Assembly: GCA_003211135.1 (NCBI GenBank) | Contig: QCTN01000001.1 | Span: 1-64,000 of the forward strand | DNA from: Prochlorococcus sp. AG-673-L20 | GTDB lineage: Bacteria > Cyanobacteriota > Cyanobacteriia > PCC-6307 > Cyanobiaceae | Length of the DNA stretch: 64,000 bases | Reading direction: 5' to 3' | Shown: positions 3,180-9,347 of the stretch, in pieces | Layout of the letters: every line of letters begins with the position of its first letter | Numbering within the stretch: the stretch's first letter is position 1 | Position numbers and translations under genes: made by a program | The notes under the pieces: generated by a model | Database searches by the model: none | Seen by the model: only the letters and a program-made list of their open reading frames with translations | What the model was told of the DNA's origin: nothing

Positions 3180-4253
3180 TTACTTGAACCCTTTTGAAGA
3201 GGAATTTGTTCGGACTTTAAAATTCCAAACAGTTACAACACCCATCGCATTAACTGCAGCTAAAGCGCAGTCATCGGGTCTCCAAGCAATATCTCCAACT
3301 AAATCTCCAGCAAAAGCAGCTCCTACAGGATCCCCATTTCCGTCGTTTTTAAGAAAACTAGCTACTACTGAACCATCTCTTGAACCTGAAGCAACTAGCA
3401 AACCTTTGTTAGAAAAAGCTAGGCTAGAAATTGGTTCAGTGTGATGACATAATTCTCCCGGCATTGTTCCTTCAGGGCCATTTCCTGAAAAACTCCATAC
3501 TGTAATTCTTTCGCTACCACTAGTTGCTAATAGCATGCCACTATCATCAAAAGAAAGGTGAGAAGGCTTTCCAGGATAACCTGTCATTTCAGCATCAAGT
3601 CCAGTTGATCTACGCCAGAAATGTACCGAATTATCTTGACTCCCACAGGCCACAATATCTCCATCAGGGCTTAACTGCATCGAAACTAGTGAACCTTGCC
3701 ATTCAAGTTTCTGATTAGTCTTTTTATTTGCTACATCAAAGAAAGTTACGCGTCCGTAGCATGCAGTTGCTAATTCATTCTTATTCGACCACGATATCGC
3801 ACTTACTGTACTTGGATGTTCTTCTGAAACCCATTGTTCATTACCATCTTGATTAAATACAAACACTTTTTTGGAAAAAGCTACGGCTAAATATAAACCT
3901 CCATTTGACCAACTTAAATGTTCTACCCAACCTTTACCAAGTTTAATGGCTTTAATTTCCTCCCCATTATTGCAATTTAATATTCGAACTATTCCGTCTT
4001 GCCCTGAAGTTGCAAAAATCTCTCCATTCGGATGGATAGACATTGCGAGAAGACCTCCGGAATGGGCTTCATCCTTTTTCCAAATAAGCTTTCCTGTATC
4101 TCCTTCGAACCCATAAAGCCCTCCGACTACGTCTCCAACGATAAAGAGTTTCCCTTTTAAAGCCCAACCACAAACTATTGCATAATCATCAACTTCAGCA
4201 GACCATCCTTCATGAAACATGCCTCTAGGGCTAAAAGGTTCTATATCAGGCAC
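3180..4253 (-). CDS. WD40 repeat protein in the zinc locus
   Basis: Repeated WD-like blades (IHPNGEIFATSGQDGIVRI, LSPDGDIVACGSQDNSVHFW, FSNKGLLVASGSRDGSV); overlaps the end of the CobW gene. Confidence 0.85.
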   Translation of the reverse strand: MPDIEPFSPRGMFHEGWSAEVDDYAIVCGWALKGKLFIVGDVVGGLYGFEGDTGKLIWKKDEAHSGGLLAMSIHPNGEIFATSGQDGIVRILNCNNGEEIKAIKLGKGWVEHLSWSNGGLYLAVAFSKKVFVFNQDGNEQWVSEEHPSTVSAISWSNKNELATACYGRVTFFDVANKKTNQKLEWQGSLVSMQLSPDGDIVACGSQDNSVHFWRRSTGLDAEMTGYPGKPSHLSFDDSGMLLATSGSERITVWSFSGNGPEGTMPGELCHHTEPISSLAFSNKGLLVASGSRDGSVVASFLKNDGNGDPVGAAFAGDLVGDIAWRPDDCALAAVNAMGVVTVWNFKVRTNSSSKGFK

Positions 4254-5599
4254 TTATCAAATCCCTCTTGCATTTCTTTTTCATTTAGATTTCTTCCAAT
4301 AAACACGAGTTGATTTCTTCGTGGTTCATTTCCCCATTCTTTATCTGGTTGGGCCGTAAATAACATATGAACCCCTTGAAATACTATTCGGCGTGGGTTG
4401 CCAGAATAACTAATAAACCCTTTTGTTCTGAATATATCAACGCCTTTCTCGGAAAGAAGTCTTCCCATCCAAGTATTCAACTTTTCAGGATCAACATCTC
4501 CAAAACGCTCTATTGCAATTGATCCAACTTCATCATCATGTTCATGTTCTGCGACCCAGTTTCTTTCAGTTTTAAAAGGAATTTCCTTAACATTATTTTG
4601 GGAATCTATTTTTAGCACTTTCATATTGAATTCTTCAGCAGTATGTTGTGAGAACAATCCAACTTTTGACGCTTTTTTTACATCCAAAATAAAAGATTTA
4701 GATCCTTTGTTTTCCAACTTAAGACTTACATGCTCATCATATGGAATAGTATTTCCAGGTTCTAAGTTTTTAGCTTTTTCTGCATAAAGTCTTACAGAGG
4801 CTTCTGCACCCTCTTTTAATTCTTCTTCACTAAATCCTTGATTAGCAAAAGCTACTATGGACATTTCAGGATCAGGTCCTTCTTCAAGTTTTAATTCATA
4901 TTTTCCAGGCTCAAGCTCATAAACTCCTGACCATTCAAAAGGATATTCAGGTTCTAAGAAAGTTGGTCTACGCTTTAAAATTTGGTCAAGATCGAATGCA
5001 CTCAAATTTAAAACTGTCTCAATAGGAACCTCTGCTTTCTCTGCTCGAATAATACGAGTCATTCTATTCATATCTCTTAATCTTGATTCAAGGTTATCAA
5101 GAGCATCATCTGAGACTAAATCAGTTTTATTAAGGACTAAGACATCTGCAAATGCCACTTGCTCAGAACTCTCATCACTACGCCCAAGTTGTTGATCAAT
5201 ATGAGCTGCATCAACTAATGTAACTATTCCATCAAGTGTGAATTCAGAACTAATTTCTTCATCCATAAAAAATGTTTGAGCAACAGGACCAGGGTCAGCT
5301 AACCCAGTTGTTTCAACTAAAACGTAGTCAAATTTATCCCTTCTTTTCATTAAATTACCAAGGACTCTAATAAGATCTCCGCGAACAGTACAACAAATAC
5401 AACCATTAGACATTTCAAATACTTCTTCATCAGCGTTTATAACCAATCCTTGATCAATTCCAACTTCTCCATATTCGTTCTCAATTACAGCGATTCGCTT
5501 ACCATGCTCTTCGCTTAATATTCTATTAAGAAGGGTCGTTTTGCCAGAACCAAGAAATCCAGTCAGGATTGTTACAGGTACTTTTTCGTTAATACTCAT
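4241..5599 (-). CDS. COG0523/CobW-family G3E GTPase, putative zinc metallochaperone, with an inserted extra domain
   Basis: GFLGSGKTT Walker A, metal-binding motif CICC (SNGCICCTVRGDL), NKTD, CobW_C domain near the C-terminus. Confidence 0.92.
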   Translation of the reverse strand: MSINEKVPVTILTGFLGSGKTTLLNRILSEEHGKRIAVIENEYGEVGIDQGLVINADEEVFEMSNGCICCTVRGDLIRVLGNLMKRRDKFDYVLVETTGLADPGPVAQTFFMDEEISSEFTLDGIVTLVDAAHIDQQLGRSDESSEQVAFADVLVLNKTDLVSDDALDNLESRLRDMNRMTRIIRAEKAEVPIETVLNLSAFDLDQILKRRPTFLEPEYPFEWSGVYELEPGKYELKLEEGPDPEMSIVAFANQGFSEEELKEGAEASVRLYAEKAKNLEPGNTIPYDEHVSLKLENKGSKSFILDVKKASKVGLFSQHTAEEFNMKVLKIDSQNNVKEIPFKTERNWVAEHEHDDEVGSIAIERFGDVDPEKLNTWMGRLLSEKGVDIFRTKGFISYSGNPRRIVFQGVHMLFTAQPDKEWGNEPRRNQLVFIGRNLNEKEMQEGFDKCLI

Positions 5600-5682
5600 T
5601 AACCAATTAACCTAAATAAAATAATGTCTAAAATTATATTAGTCATTATTTGATAATGAAAACCGTTATCTTATAGAAAAGT

Positions 5683-7182
5683 TTAATTTTGAAGAGAATT
5701 CCAGGTGACTTCAAGGTTGGAGCCTGCTTCTTTATCACATGATCCACCTAATGAATTTACAATGGTACATGTATTGTGAACTGCAACTGAAACTGTATTC
5801 CCTGTCATCATTAATCCATCAACAAATATTTGATTAGAAGCTAAAGGAACTGAACTCTGTCTACTCAAGTTTTTTAATAACTTAGAAGCTGGTATTTGTT
5901 CAGGAAATATTGCCTTAACATTTTCTTCATCAAGCATCTTCAACGTTGATTGAATATTGTCAGGTCTTAGACTTGATGAGTCACCAAGAAAATCTAGTAA
6001 GCTAATAGTCTCAAATCCAAAAGCATCGCCGTAATATTCCATTGCCTTATGTTTAGATACAATAACTCTGTTGGATTCTGGAATTGTTGAGACCTGTGCA
6101 ACAATCCAGCTATCGAGTTCTTCTAGTGTTGAATCTACTGAAGCAAAGCTCGCATTGATTGATTTCCTGTCAGATCTATTAAAAACAGATATATCTTTCT
6201 TTAAACTTTTACTTACAACTTCTCCCATTTTTATAATGTTATGAGGATCATGCCAAACATGAGGATCTAATCCTCCGTGATCATGGTGGTGATGTCCCTC
6301 TCCTTCATCTGGAACTTGTGCAATTGGTTCAACATCGCTATTAGATAAATCTTTAAAGAAGTGTTCTTCGGCTTCAAACTCAAAAGGCATATGTTCAGTA
6401 AAGAATGTATATTGGCCATCTTCTTGAATTTCTACATTAAATACTGTACTCTCCCTCCCTTGATCAAAATTAAGAACATAGGCTTTATTACTCACTACGA
6501 GAGTTCCATTATTTTTTTTGTTTATTGAATTCTTAGATCCTAATAGCTCTTTAGCTAGTTCTTCAGAAGATTCAATATCGTTTGATTCGAGAACCACCAT
6601 TTTCATAGCTGGATCTGCATATTCCCCGCCTACCTTTGCGAATGACCATTTGTAGGAACCTTTAGAGAGTTGAAATTTGCCTGCCCATTCAAATGAACCT
6701 TCGGCATGGTCATCATGTCCAGCGTGATCATCATGTCCATCATGTCCATCATGATCATCTCCTTTTGCTGCAGAGTGATCATCATGCTCACCATGATCAG
6801 AGTGGTCATCTACATCTATAGCACTTACACCAATTACAACTGTTTGAGGCTTACCCTCCCAATTTTTCATACTTGGGGTCATCTCTTTCCCTAGAGTAAA
6901 AACTTTATCCGCACTGTTAAGTAATTGAGCTTGTCTTGGAGTTATTTTAAAGTCATGTACATCTTGTTTTCTATCAACCAAACAGGTTACTTCATCAGAA
7001 GGTAAGGCAATAGATTTTACTAAATCGCAAGTGAGTGGCTCTACAGCTACATATGATTTTTCTTTCGCTAAAACATCTTGACCAACTGTTGATAATAATA
7101 CGGATCCAGCTAATAAAGAGTTTTTGATAACAGAAAGATTAGATCTCTTATTACTAAAAATTACTTTTTTAAAAATTGACAT
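5683..7182 (-). CDS. znuA: Zinc ABC transporter substrate-binding protein (ZnuA-like) with His-rich loop and inserted domain
   Basis: Cluster A-I SBP: LDPHVWHDPHN, SKHKAMEYYGDAFGF, NVKAIFPEQIPASKL; HDGHDGHDDHAGHDDHAEG and HHHHDHGG stretches; divergent from znuC. Confidence 0.88.
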   Translation of the reverse strand: MSIFKKVIFSNKRSNLSVIKNSLLAGSVLLSTVGQDVLAKEKSYVAVEPLTCDLVKSIALPSDEVTCLVDRKQDVHDFKITPRQAQLLNSADKVFTLGKEMTPSMKNWEGKPQTVVIGVSAIDVDDHSDHGEHDDHSAAKGDDHDGHDGHDDHAGHDDHAEGSFEWAGKFQLSKGSYKWSFAKVGGEYADPAMKMVVLESNDIESSEELAKELLGSKNSINKKNNGTLVVSNKAYVLNFDQGRESTVFNVEIQEDGQYTFFTEHMPFEFEAEEHFFKDLSNSDVEPIAQVPDEGEGHHHHDHGGLDPHVWHDPHNIIKMGEVVSKSLKKDISVFNRSDRKSINASFASVDSTLEELDSWIVAQVSTIPESNRVIVSKHKAMEYYGDAFGFETISLLDFLGDSSSLRPDNIQSTLKMLDEENVKAIFPEQIPASKLLKNLSRQSSVPLASNQIFVDGLMMTGNTVSVAVHNTCTIVNSLGGSCDKEAGSNLEVTWNSLQN

Positions 7183-7223: not shown

Positions 7224-7321
7224 TAATTAATGGCAATATTTGGTATCAATTGTTATGAAATAAGTATGGATTCCTTAATATTGATAAAATAATGGTCTAA
7301 CTGTTTTAAATATATTTTTTG

Positions 7322-8092
7322 ATGGCTACTTTAATTGCAGAAAATTTAACTTATTCTTATTCAAAACAAAGCAAGCCAGCTTTAAATAAGGTTTCAGTTC
7401 AAATAAAACCAGGAACATTGACTGCCCTAGTTGGGCCAAATGGAGCTGGTAAATCAACTCTTTTGAAATTATTGCAAGGACAAAATAATCCTGATATTGG
7501 AGATATAACTATTGATGGTGAAAGTTTAGTTAGAACTAGATCCCAGATTGCACTTATGCCACAAAGAAGCTCAATGAATTGGAAATTTCCTATTACTGTT
7601 GAAAAATTAGTCTCTTTAGGTCAAATAAAATATTCAAAATCAAAAAATACAAATCCATTCCAAATAAAGGCTCTTCTTGCAAATCCAAAATCTTGGGTTA
7701 ATAAATGTTGCGAATTGGAAGCAACAATGCAAAGAGTTGGCATTTCAAATCTTGCAAATAGAAGACTTGATTCTCTTTCAGGTGGACAACAACAAAGAGC
7801 ACTTTTGGCTAAAACTTTAATGTCTCCTGCAAGAATTCTTCTGCTAGATGAACCATGTGCTGCATTAGATCCTCCCGCAAAGGACGATTTTCTTAAGATA
7901 GTCCGACAACTTGCAGACGCAGGCTTAGCTTTGTTTATAAGTAGTCATGATTGGGGCTCATCTCTCAATAGTTATGATCATGTAGTTGTTTTAGATAAAA
8001 CAGTATTAGCAACCGGAACTCCCAATTCAATACAAGGCAAATTAGATGATCTTAATATTAGTTCTTTAAAAGAAAATAATTCTTGTGATTAA
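7322..8092 (+). CDS. znuC: Zinc/manganese ABC transporter ATP-binding protein
   Basis: GPNGAGKST, LSGGQQQRALLAKTLM, LLLDEP; ATG at 7322 preferred over the TTG at 7319. Confidence 0.9.
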   Translation: MATLIAENLTYSYSKQSKPALNKVSVQIKPGTLTALVGPNGAGKSTLLKLLQGQNNPDIGDITIDGESLVRTRSQIALMPQRSSMNWKFPITVEKLVSLGQIKYSKSKNTNPFQIKALLANPKSWVNKCCELEATMQRVGISNLANRRLDSLSGGQQQRALLAKTLMSPARILLLDEPCAALDPPAKDDFLKIVRQLADAGLALFISSHDWGSSLNSYDHVVVLDKTVLATGTPNSIQGKLDDLNISSLKENNSCD

Positions 8093-8100
8093 AGATATTA

Positions 8101-8511
8101 TTAAATTTGACTCTGAGCTTGATAACAGTTTTGGCAAAGGCCGAAATATTCAAGTGTATGAAACAAAAGTTGAAATTTTTTTGGGTTTTTCTTAGGACTA
8201 TGAATATCTTTTACCGGACAACCTTCCATTTTGGAGGTTTCTCCACATTGAACACATGTCAGATGGTGAATATCTCTATCAACAGGAGTGTAAAGTACTT
8301 CACCTGTTGGAAGATGTCTAGATCGAATCAATCCATGTTTTATAAGAGCTTGAAGATTTCTATAAACTGTTGTCAAACCCATAGATTTGCCTTCGATAAT
8401 CAATTGCCTATGCAATTCTTGACCACTCAATTCATCATCACATTTTTTAAGTTCTTCAAGAAGTTGCTCTTGTCTTTTGGTAATGTCAAGCTTGGTTACC
8501 ATCATTTTCAA
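8101..8511 (-). CDS. zur: Fur-family transcriptional regulator, probably Zur
   Basis: Fur fold: LSGQELHRQLI..GLTTVYRNLQALIKHGL, HHLTCVQCG, CQNC; embedded between znuC and znuB. Confidence 0.85.
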   Translation of the reverse strand: MKMMVTKLDITKRQEQLLEELKKCDDELSGQELHRQLIIEGKSMGLTTVYRNLQALIKHGLIRSRHLPTGEVLYTPVDRDIHHLTCVQCGETSKMEGCPVKDIHSPKKNPKKFQLLFHTLEYFGLCQNCYQAQSQI

Positions 8512-8558: not shown

Positions 8559-9347
8559 ATGTCTTTTTTAAACAACTGGTGGTTTATACCTTTAATAATT
8601 ACTATTTTCTCTGGAATCTTATGCCCAGCTATGGGAACAGTATTGATTACTCATAGAAGACTATTACAAGTAAATTTAATTTCTCATTGTGTTTTACCGG
8701 GGCTAGCTCTAGCTCTAGCTCTAGGTATTCATCCCTCAATTGGAGGAGTTATAAGTGGTCTTGTTGGTGCAATTATTGCGGAGAGTTTAACTAATAAAAA
8801 AAGTGAAAATTATGAAGCAGTTATGAATACAATTCTTGCTGGCATGCTTGGTTTTGGGGTTTTACTAATTCCACTTCTTGGGATAAGAATTGATTTAGAG
8901 GCAGTATTATTTGGGGATTTATTAACCGCAAATCTTGGCGATTTATTAAGAACAATTATTGCTTTTCTAACATTCATTTTATTAGTAACATTCGGATATG
9001 AAAAAGTTGTATATGTCGGATTAGATCCAGAGGGCGCCTCAGCTAGTGGAATAAATGTGTCTTTGTTAAACCTAGCTCTAAGTTTCACGACGGCACTAGT
9101 TATCGTTAGTTCAATGTCAGCTGTTGGAGTAATTTTAGTAATTGCATTACTCTCAACACCTACTTTATTAGGACTTGATAAAGCACAAAGTCTTAGGATT
9201 GCAATGATGAGATCTTCATTCTTTGGACTTTGTATTTCTCTATTGGGTTTTATTCTTTCAATTGTTTTTAACTTATCTCCTGGTCCTGCAATAAGTGTTA
9301 TTTGCGTTGCTTCGTTAATAATTCCAAAAATTGGAAATAAATTTTAA
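8559..9347 (+). CDS. znuB: Zinc/manganese ABC transporter permease
   Basis: ABC-3 family permease, many TM segments: LISHCVLPGLALALALG, DPEGASASGINVSLLN. Confidence 0.9.
   Translation: MSFLNNWWFIPLIITIFSGILCPAMGTVLITHRRLLQVNLISHCVLPGLALALALGIHPSIGGVISGLVGAIIAESLTNKKSENYEAVMNTILAGMLGFGVLLIPLLGIRIDLEAVLFGDLLTANLGDLLRTIIAFLTFILLVTFGYEKVVYVGLDPEGASASGINVSLLNLALSFTTALVIVSSMSAVGVILVIALLSTPTLLGLDKAQSLRIAMMRSSFFGLCISLLGFILSIVFNLSPGPAISVICVASLIIPKIGNKF

Follow-up and report, generated by a model that had tools for sequence, protein, structure and literature searches.

Several described systems come close to the locus analysed here. According to Haas et al. 2009 (PMC2770081), the prokaryotic members of COG0523 subfamily 5 have WD40 genes and znuABC as cluster neighbours, and several of them lie downstream of predicted Zur sites. 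In Synechococcus WH8102, repression by Zur and a rise at low zinc coincide in znuC, znuA and the two genes that follow, and in no other gene (PMC9337993). Accessory domains are known from zinc capture as well: in AdcA, a ZinT-like domain, which is a C-terminal lipocalin-like barrel with three His ligands, and a His-rich loop together aid zinc uptake (PMC7858048). The E. coli COG0523 GTPase YjiA (318 aa; PDB 1nij, 4ixm), the Zur-regulated Anabaena zinc exoprotein ZepA, which has a beta-sandwich domain (PMC10957091), and the beta-propeller protein AztD, a periplasmic or cell-surface zinc donor to AztC (PMC6689063), complete this set.

We explored a locus of this kind in a 64,000-nucleotide stretch of Prochlorococcus sp. 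AG-673-L20 DNA (contig QCTN01000001.1), hereafter the window. Two of its minus-strand genes, encoding a COG0523/CobW GTPase and ZnuA, contain the same inserted domain, and the relevant features are the following:

3180..4253, minus strand: WD40 protein gene, whose start overlaps the end of the GTPase gene by 13 nt
4241..5599, minus strand: COG0523 / G3E-family GTPase, 452 aa, with cobW at 8-184, the shared domain at about 219-332 and CobW_C at 359-451
4604..4945, minus strand: shared domain in the COG0523 GTPase, about aa 219-332, in the interval between the GTPase core and CobW_C
5683..7182, minus strand: ZnuA-type zinc-binding protein of an ABC importer, 499 aa, with His-rich stretches flanking the shared domain on both sides
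6313..6702, minus strand: shared domain in ZnuA, about aa 161-290, within the His-rich loop
7205..7221, no strand assigned: candidate Zur box AAAATGAT-a-ATCATTTT (AAAATGATaATCATTTT), a perfect 8-nt inverted repeat in the znuA/znuC interval
7319..8092, plus strand: ZnuC-like ABC ATPase (by sequence inspection), divergent from znuA
8101..8511, minus strand: FUR-family regulator, likely Zur as judged from its context
8559..9347, plus strand: ZnuB-like ABC permease (by sequence inspection)

The GTPase matched the cobW nucleotide-binding domain (PF02492, E 2e-61) and CobW_C (PF07683, E 1.6e-24) in Pfam, and has a P-loop, GFLGSGKTT (GxxGxGKT), and a CxCC metal motif, GCICC, both of which are kept across a 21-row GTPase alignment save for S/A variation in the P-loop. 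ZnuA matched PF01297 (E 4.8e-43), with residues 274-475 as the best stretch. By inspection, the N-terminus of ZnuA is signal-peptide-like, which points to the periplasm, and the GTPase begins at its P-loop domain without a leader, which points to the cytosol; the WD40 protein also appears leaderless.

Like the members of COG0523 subfamily 5, the window GTPase adjoins a WD40 gene and ZnuABC-type genes, and by gene context it is a putative member of that subfamily; it also carries an inserted domain, which goes unmentioned in the consulted passages of that account (PMC2770081). Its core and C-terminal domain match YjiA, but YjiA is about 130 residues shorter and thus has no room for the insertion. 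The window ZnuA resembles AdcA: both are ZnuA-type binding proteins that combine a His-rich loop with an additional domain linked to the capture of zinc, but here the additional domain is predicted to be beta-rich, lies inside the His-rich loop and has no Pfam match; our best guess is that it is an accessory metal-binding module comparable to the ZinT domain of AdcA. Like AztD, the WD40 protein is a beta-propeller paired with a zinc-handling system, but it differs from AztD in its apparent lack of a leader and in its pairing with a putatively cytosolic GTPase.

The gene order of the window matches the znuC, znuA, next-two-genes order of WH8102, and from gene order we infer that the latter two are the COG0523 and WD40 genes. 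Gene order and the inverted repeat between znuA and znuC are consistent with Zur control of the window locus. In marine picocyanobacteria, the domain belongs to a zinc uptake locus whose control by Zur has been demonstrated in WH8102 (PMC9337993). An imperfect palindrome, GATAATGaaaacCGTTATC (window about 5652-5670), lies just upstream of the GTPase gene and is possibly a second Zur box.

A sequence-only reading of the window had proposed that the GTPase and ZnuA share a domain of ~110 aa, foreign to the canonical families of both proteins. The peptides that it quoted lie where it had put them, read on the minus strand; the shared segment is real, although slightly longer than proposed (about 120-127 aa), and its predicted placement was correct in both hosts, after the G3E GTPase core and before CobW_C (Pfam 8-184, 359-451) in CobW and inside the His-rich metal-loading loop in ZnuA. 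The canonical families do lack the domain, and the Pfam cobW/CobW_C and ZnuA models leave both segments uncovered.

Direct pairwise comparison of the two segments by BLASTP gave a modest match over the first 46 residues only (E 2e-5), and so short a match could be taken for chance, or for convergence of two beta-rich insertions. The broader comparisons argue strongly against this. Among 201 sampled genomes of the family, a search with the ZnuA segment retrieved the GTPase segment, with the same start and end, from dozens of picocyanobacterial genomes (best per-genome E 5.9e-7), and the reciprocal query with the GTPase segment retrieved the ZnuA segment in register (best E 6e-8). Profile-profile comparison of two separately built alignments with no common row, one of 11 ZnuA copies (A1) and the other of 35 GTPase copies (A5), showed them to be related (probability 99.5, E 1.8e-22, 102 columns); the match is in register and spans the full length, FTEH..EF end included, in agreement with the alignment up to FTEH..EEF that had been proposed. 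Moreover, in AlphaFold2 (AF2) models of the ZnuA copy and of the complete GTPase, the domain has the same strand order and one helix. The profile match, the reciprocal searches and the model topology thus refute chance or convergence, to which we leave a negligible probability, and we regard the homology of the ZnuA and GTPase segments as settled. Since the profiles are related and both segments fall outside the ordinary CobW_C and SBP families, the proposal of a shared, non-canonical domain stands.

No Pfam or NCBIfam family covers either segment. With 37 domain copies, Pfam returned nothing at E 0.01 save one marginal DUF7055, and neither this search nor NCBIfam gave a ZinT match in the inserted segment. 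A sequence search of the PDB with the domain returned nothing at E 1, and fold searches of the PDB and of viral models returned nothing at E 0.001 (best PDB TM about 0.3). Haemagglutinin heads and similar beta structures were rejected as fold relatives, their matches being at chance level only, and so were CBM35 (E 0.11) and Lsa27 (E 0.018) as identities of the domain, both lying under the family cut-offs. The limited set of papers searched does not mention the domain.

Eight positions are invariant in 37/37 diverse copies: F4, E5, W6, G8, G15, D30, H104 and E108 (numbering of the ZnuA copy). The AF2 model of the ZnuA copy is beta-rich and confident (pLDDT 90, pTM 0.84); it puts E5 at the N-end of strand 6-12, D30 at that of strand 32-39, and H104 and E108 right after strand 96-102, which is compatible with a single cluster at one edge of the domain. 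In the GTPase model the first ~70 residues are of low confidence, and its interdomain geometry was therefore left unused. We regard the segment as a previously undescribed accessory domain of roughly 115 residues with a predicted beta-rich fold of its own, for which we use the working name FEW-G domain.

Surveys found the domain well beyond this locus, in about ten or more phyla and in at least five host types of bacteria and archaea. The local picture given by the sequence-only reading was thus too narrow, and by its sequence matches the domain is a widespread module. Plasmid searches detected it in proteins of haloarchaea, both ZnuA and His-rich secreted or lipoprotein-like ones, as well as in a membrane protein of Alicyclobacillus and in COG0523 GTPases of proteobacteria. 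Scanning GTDB genomes yielded 188 confirmed loci; the 80 of them that were listed, many from metagenome bins, represent Pseudomonadota, Poribacteria, Acidobacteriota, Chloroflexota, Gemmatimonadota, Planctomycetota, Verrucomicrobiota, Lentisphaerota, Nitrososphaerota and others. All of these listed loci save one encode a GTPase or a GTPase fragment with the domain ahead of CobW_C; the exception, L128, is a CDF cation-efflux transporter from Paenibacillus that carries the domain C-terminally, with His-rich stretches on either side of it. ZnuA-type hosts occur in cyanobacteria, Bacillota and haloarchaea, and the hosts in Bacillota are ZnuA and small His-rich secreted proteins, one of which adjoins CbiM. 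The Alicyclobacillus membrane host had been considered NicO-like, an assignment that was dropped as Pfam assigns it no family. A further host, L092, is by sequence a COG0523 GTPase, broken in its C-terminal part, and not a lipoprotein-like protein.

The distribution over phyla is sporadic: the domain was present in 22/293 genomes of Cyanobacteria, 8/299 of Bacillota, 2/299 of Pseudomonadota, 6/200 of Planctomycetota and 12/201 of Chloroflexota, each draw containing the genome that seeded it. In the cyanobacterial sample (n=293) it was confined to picocyanobacteria and four others, a distribution that would set it apart from ZepA.

In a domain tree of 46 rows, the picocyanobacterial ZnuA copies clustered with Bacillota ZnuA copies (support 99/96), the picocyanobacterial GTPase copies clustered with the GTPase copy of another cyanobacterial-phylum lineage (support 99/99), and the haloarchaeal ZnuA copies clustered with haloarchaeal secreted proteins; a single origin of all ZnuA copies was nevertheless not rejected (p-AU 0.42). 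These groupings bear on the idea that the domain was copied from neighbour to neighbour inside the cyanobacterial locus, making a matched protein pair. The two genes are indeed adjacent and in the same orientation, and of the near-complete picocyanobacterial genomes, 23 carry the domain in both proteins and 4 in the GTPase alone, while in none of them does a ZnuA copy occur by itself. Yet forcing the picocyanobacterial ZnuA and GTPase sets into one clade was rejected (p-AU 0.0018), and with it, under the model used, a local duplication between the two genes; the ZnuA copy sides instead with Bacillota ZnuA, and the hosts belong to different compartments. We therefore regard local copying as extremely improbable.

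From the presence of the domain in both locus proteins, the sequence-only reading had also suggested a docking or zinc-handover role. The link to metal persists, but docking or handover between these two proteins is unsupported by their compartments and by the tree. Since, to judge from their N-termini, ZnuA would be exported and the GTPase cytosolic, direct handover of zinc from ZnuA to the GTPase of the locus is unlikely. The existence of near-complete picocyanobacterial genomes with the GTPase copy only argues in the same direction, as does the ZnuA copy being the sole copy in Bacillota genomes and on one haloarchaeal plasmid.

We favour, with roughly even confidence for and against, the proposal that the FEW-G domain is an accessory domain fitted into otherwise unrelated metal proteins, where it would bind a divalent metal and serve as an intramolecular relay or holding site. 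The hosts are nearly all metal-linked (ZnuA-type proteins, COG0523 GTPases, a CDF transporter and His-rich secreted or lipoprotein-like proteins), and outside the GTPases the domain is in most cases flanked by His-rich stretches, the two 40-residue flanks in ZnuA hosts holding on average 7.6 and 7.5 His. Metal handling is all that the hosts have in common, and we infer a metal site made of acidic residues and His. The invariant E5, D30, H104 and E108 at one domain edge would hold the metal, zinc in this locus, and in most hosts the domain would work as a relay or holding site next to His-rich stretches. The ZnuA copy would catch periplasmic zinc and, together with its flanking His-rich stretches, feed the binding cleft, a mechanism already put forward for AdcA with its ZinT domain and His-rich loop, and the GTPase copy would hold zinc, or present the client or WD40 side, while the CxCC site of the G domain loads and releases the metal; acting in separate compartments, the two copies would never meet. 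Judging from neighbouring genes, the metal context of the domain is not zinc-only, as some copies adjoin CbiM or urease genes. Against a metal role, H104 is the sole invariant His, and the upstream flank of the GTPase hosts is His-poor (0.5 His per 40 aa).

The linkage to WD40 proteins equally fits docking for the GTPase copy, which may hold metal or dock its WD40 partner. Where there is room, the gene immediately downstream of the domain-bearing GTPase encodes a WD40 protein in 76/77 listed GTDB loci (a match-based count), a WD40 match lies beside it in 17/17 loci of three phylum surveys, and the 11 best WD40 matches in Chloroflexota all come from genomes with a domain-bearing GTPase; the window WD40 protein itself is 30% identical to that of Paraburkholderia over 342 residues. 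The domain marks a COG0523 subfamily nearly always paired with a WD40 protein. These associations speak for a protein-docking module, through which the GTPase copy would bind WD40 and the other hosts another partner, the host alone handling the metal. However, outside cyanobacteria the stretches seen show no WD40 partner for the ZnuA, CDF and secreted hosts, the WD40 protein could instead bind the GTPase or CobW_C part, and the invariant E/D/H/E fit a metal at least as well, so that we consider a docking module rather unlikely. The domain might also be a general structural spacer or lid without a binding role, inserted wherever the fold tolerates a loop, and its sites, a surface loop in ZnuA and an interdomain linker in CobW, would suit such a role; yet eight positions, of which four are charged residues or His, do not vary between hosts or phyla, and this, together with the restriction to metal-linked hosts, makes a spacer improbable.

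If the FEW-G domain binds metal, as we favour, it would be an unrecognised accessory module for several known kinds of metal protein and an annotation handle for many hypothetical proteins. A wider proposal, which we hold only tentatively, is that it represents a new metal-binding fold and, on either side of the membrane, a general relay used by binding proteins, efflux transporters, GTPase metallochaperones and free-standing secreted proteins, the GTPase and WD40 protein forming an obligate zinc-delivery machine across phyla.

Several individual loci showed further particularities. In Bacillota, a small domain-bearing ORF (L200) adjoins CbiM and an ABC ATPase, which suggests cobalt or nickel rather than zinc, and a haloarchaeal secreted His-rich domain protein (L070, 3872-4423) ends a urease gene cluster, which suggests nickel. 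A picocyanobacterial ZnuA of 615 aa (L010 in G067, ORF 673-2517) has two tandem domain copies, and an 873-aa ZnuA ORF (L018 in G078) has two identical copies 323 residues apart, through either duplication or an assembly artefact. The domain-bearing GTPase of a Pantoea soli plasmid (L067) looks frame-broken and adjoins a repressor gene and zigA. Finally, on a Haloarcula halophila plasmid the GTPase-to-ZnuA gene run is present twice (L062 and L071); one of the two has a ZnuA frame that is interrupted within the domain, close to where the record ends.
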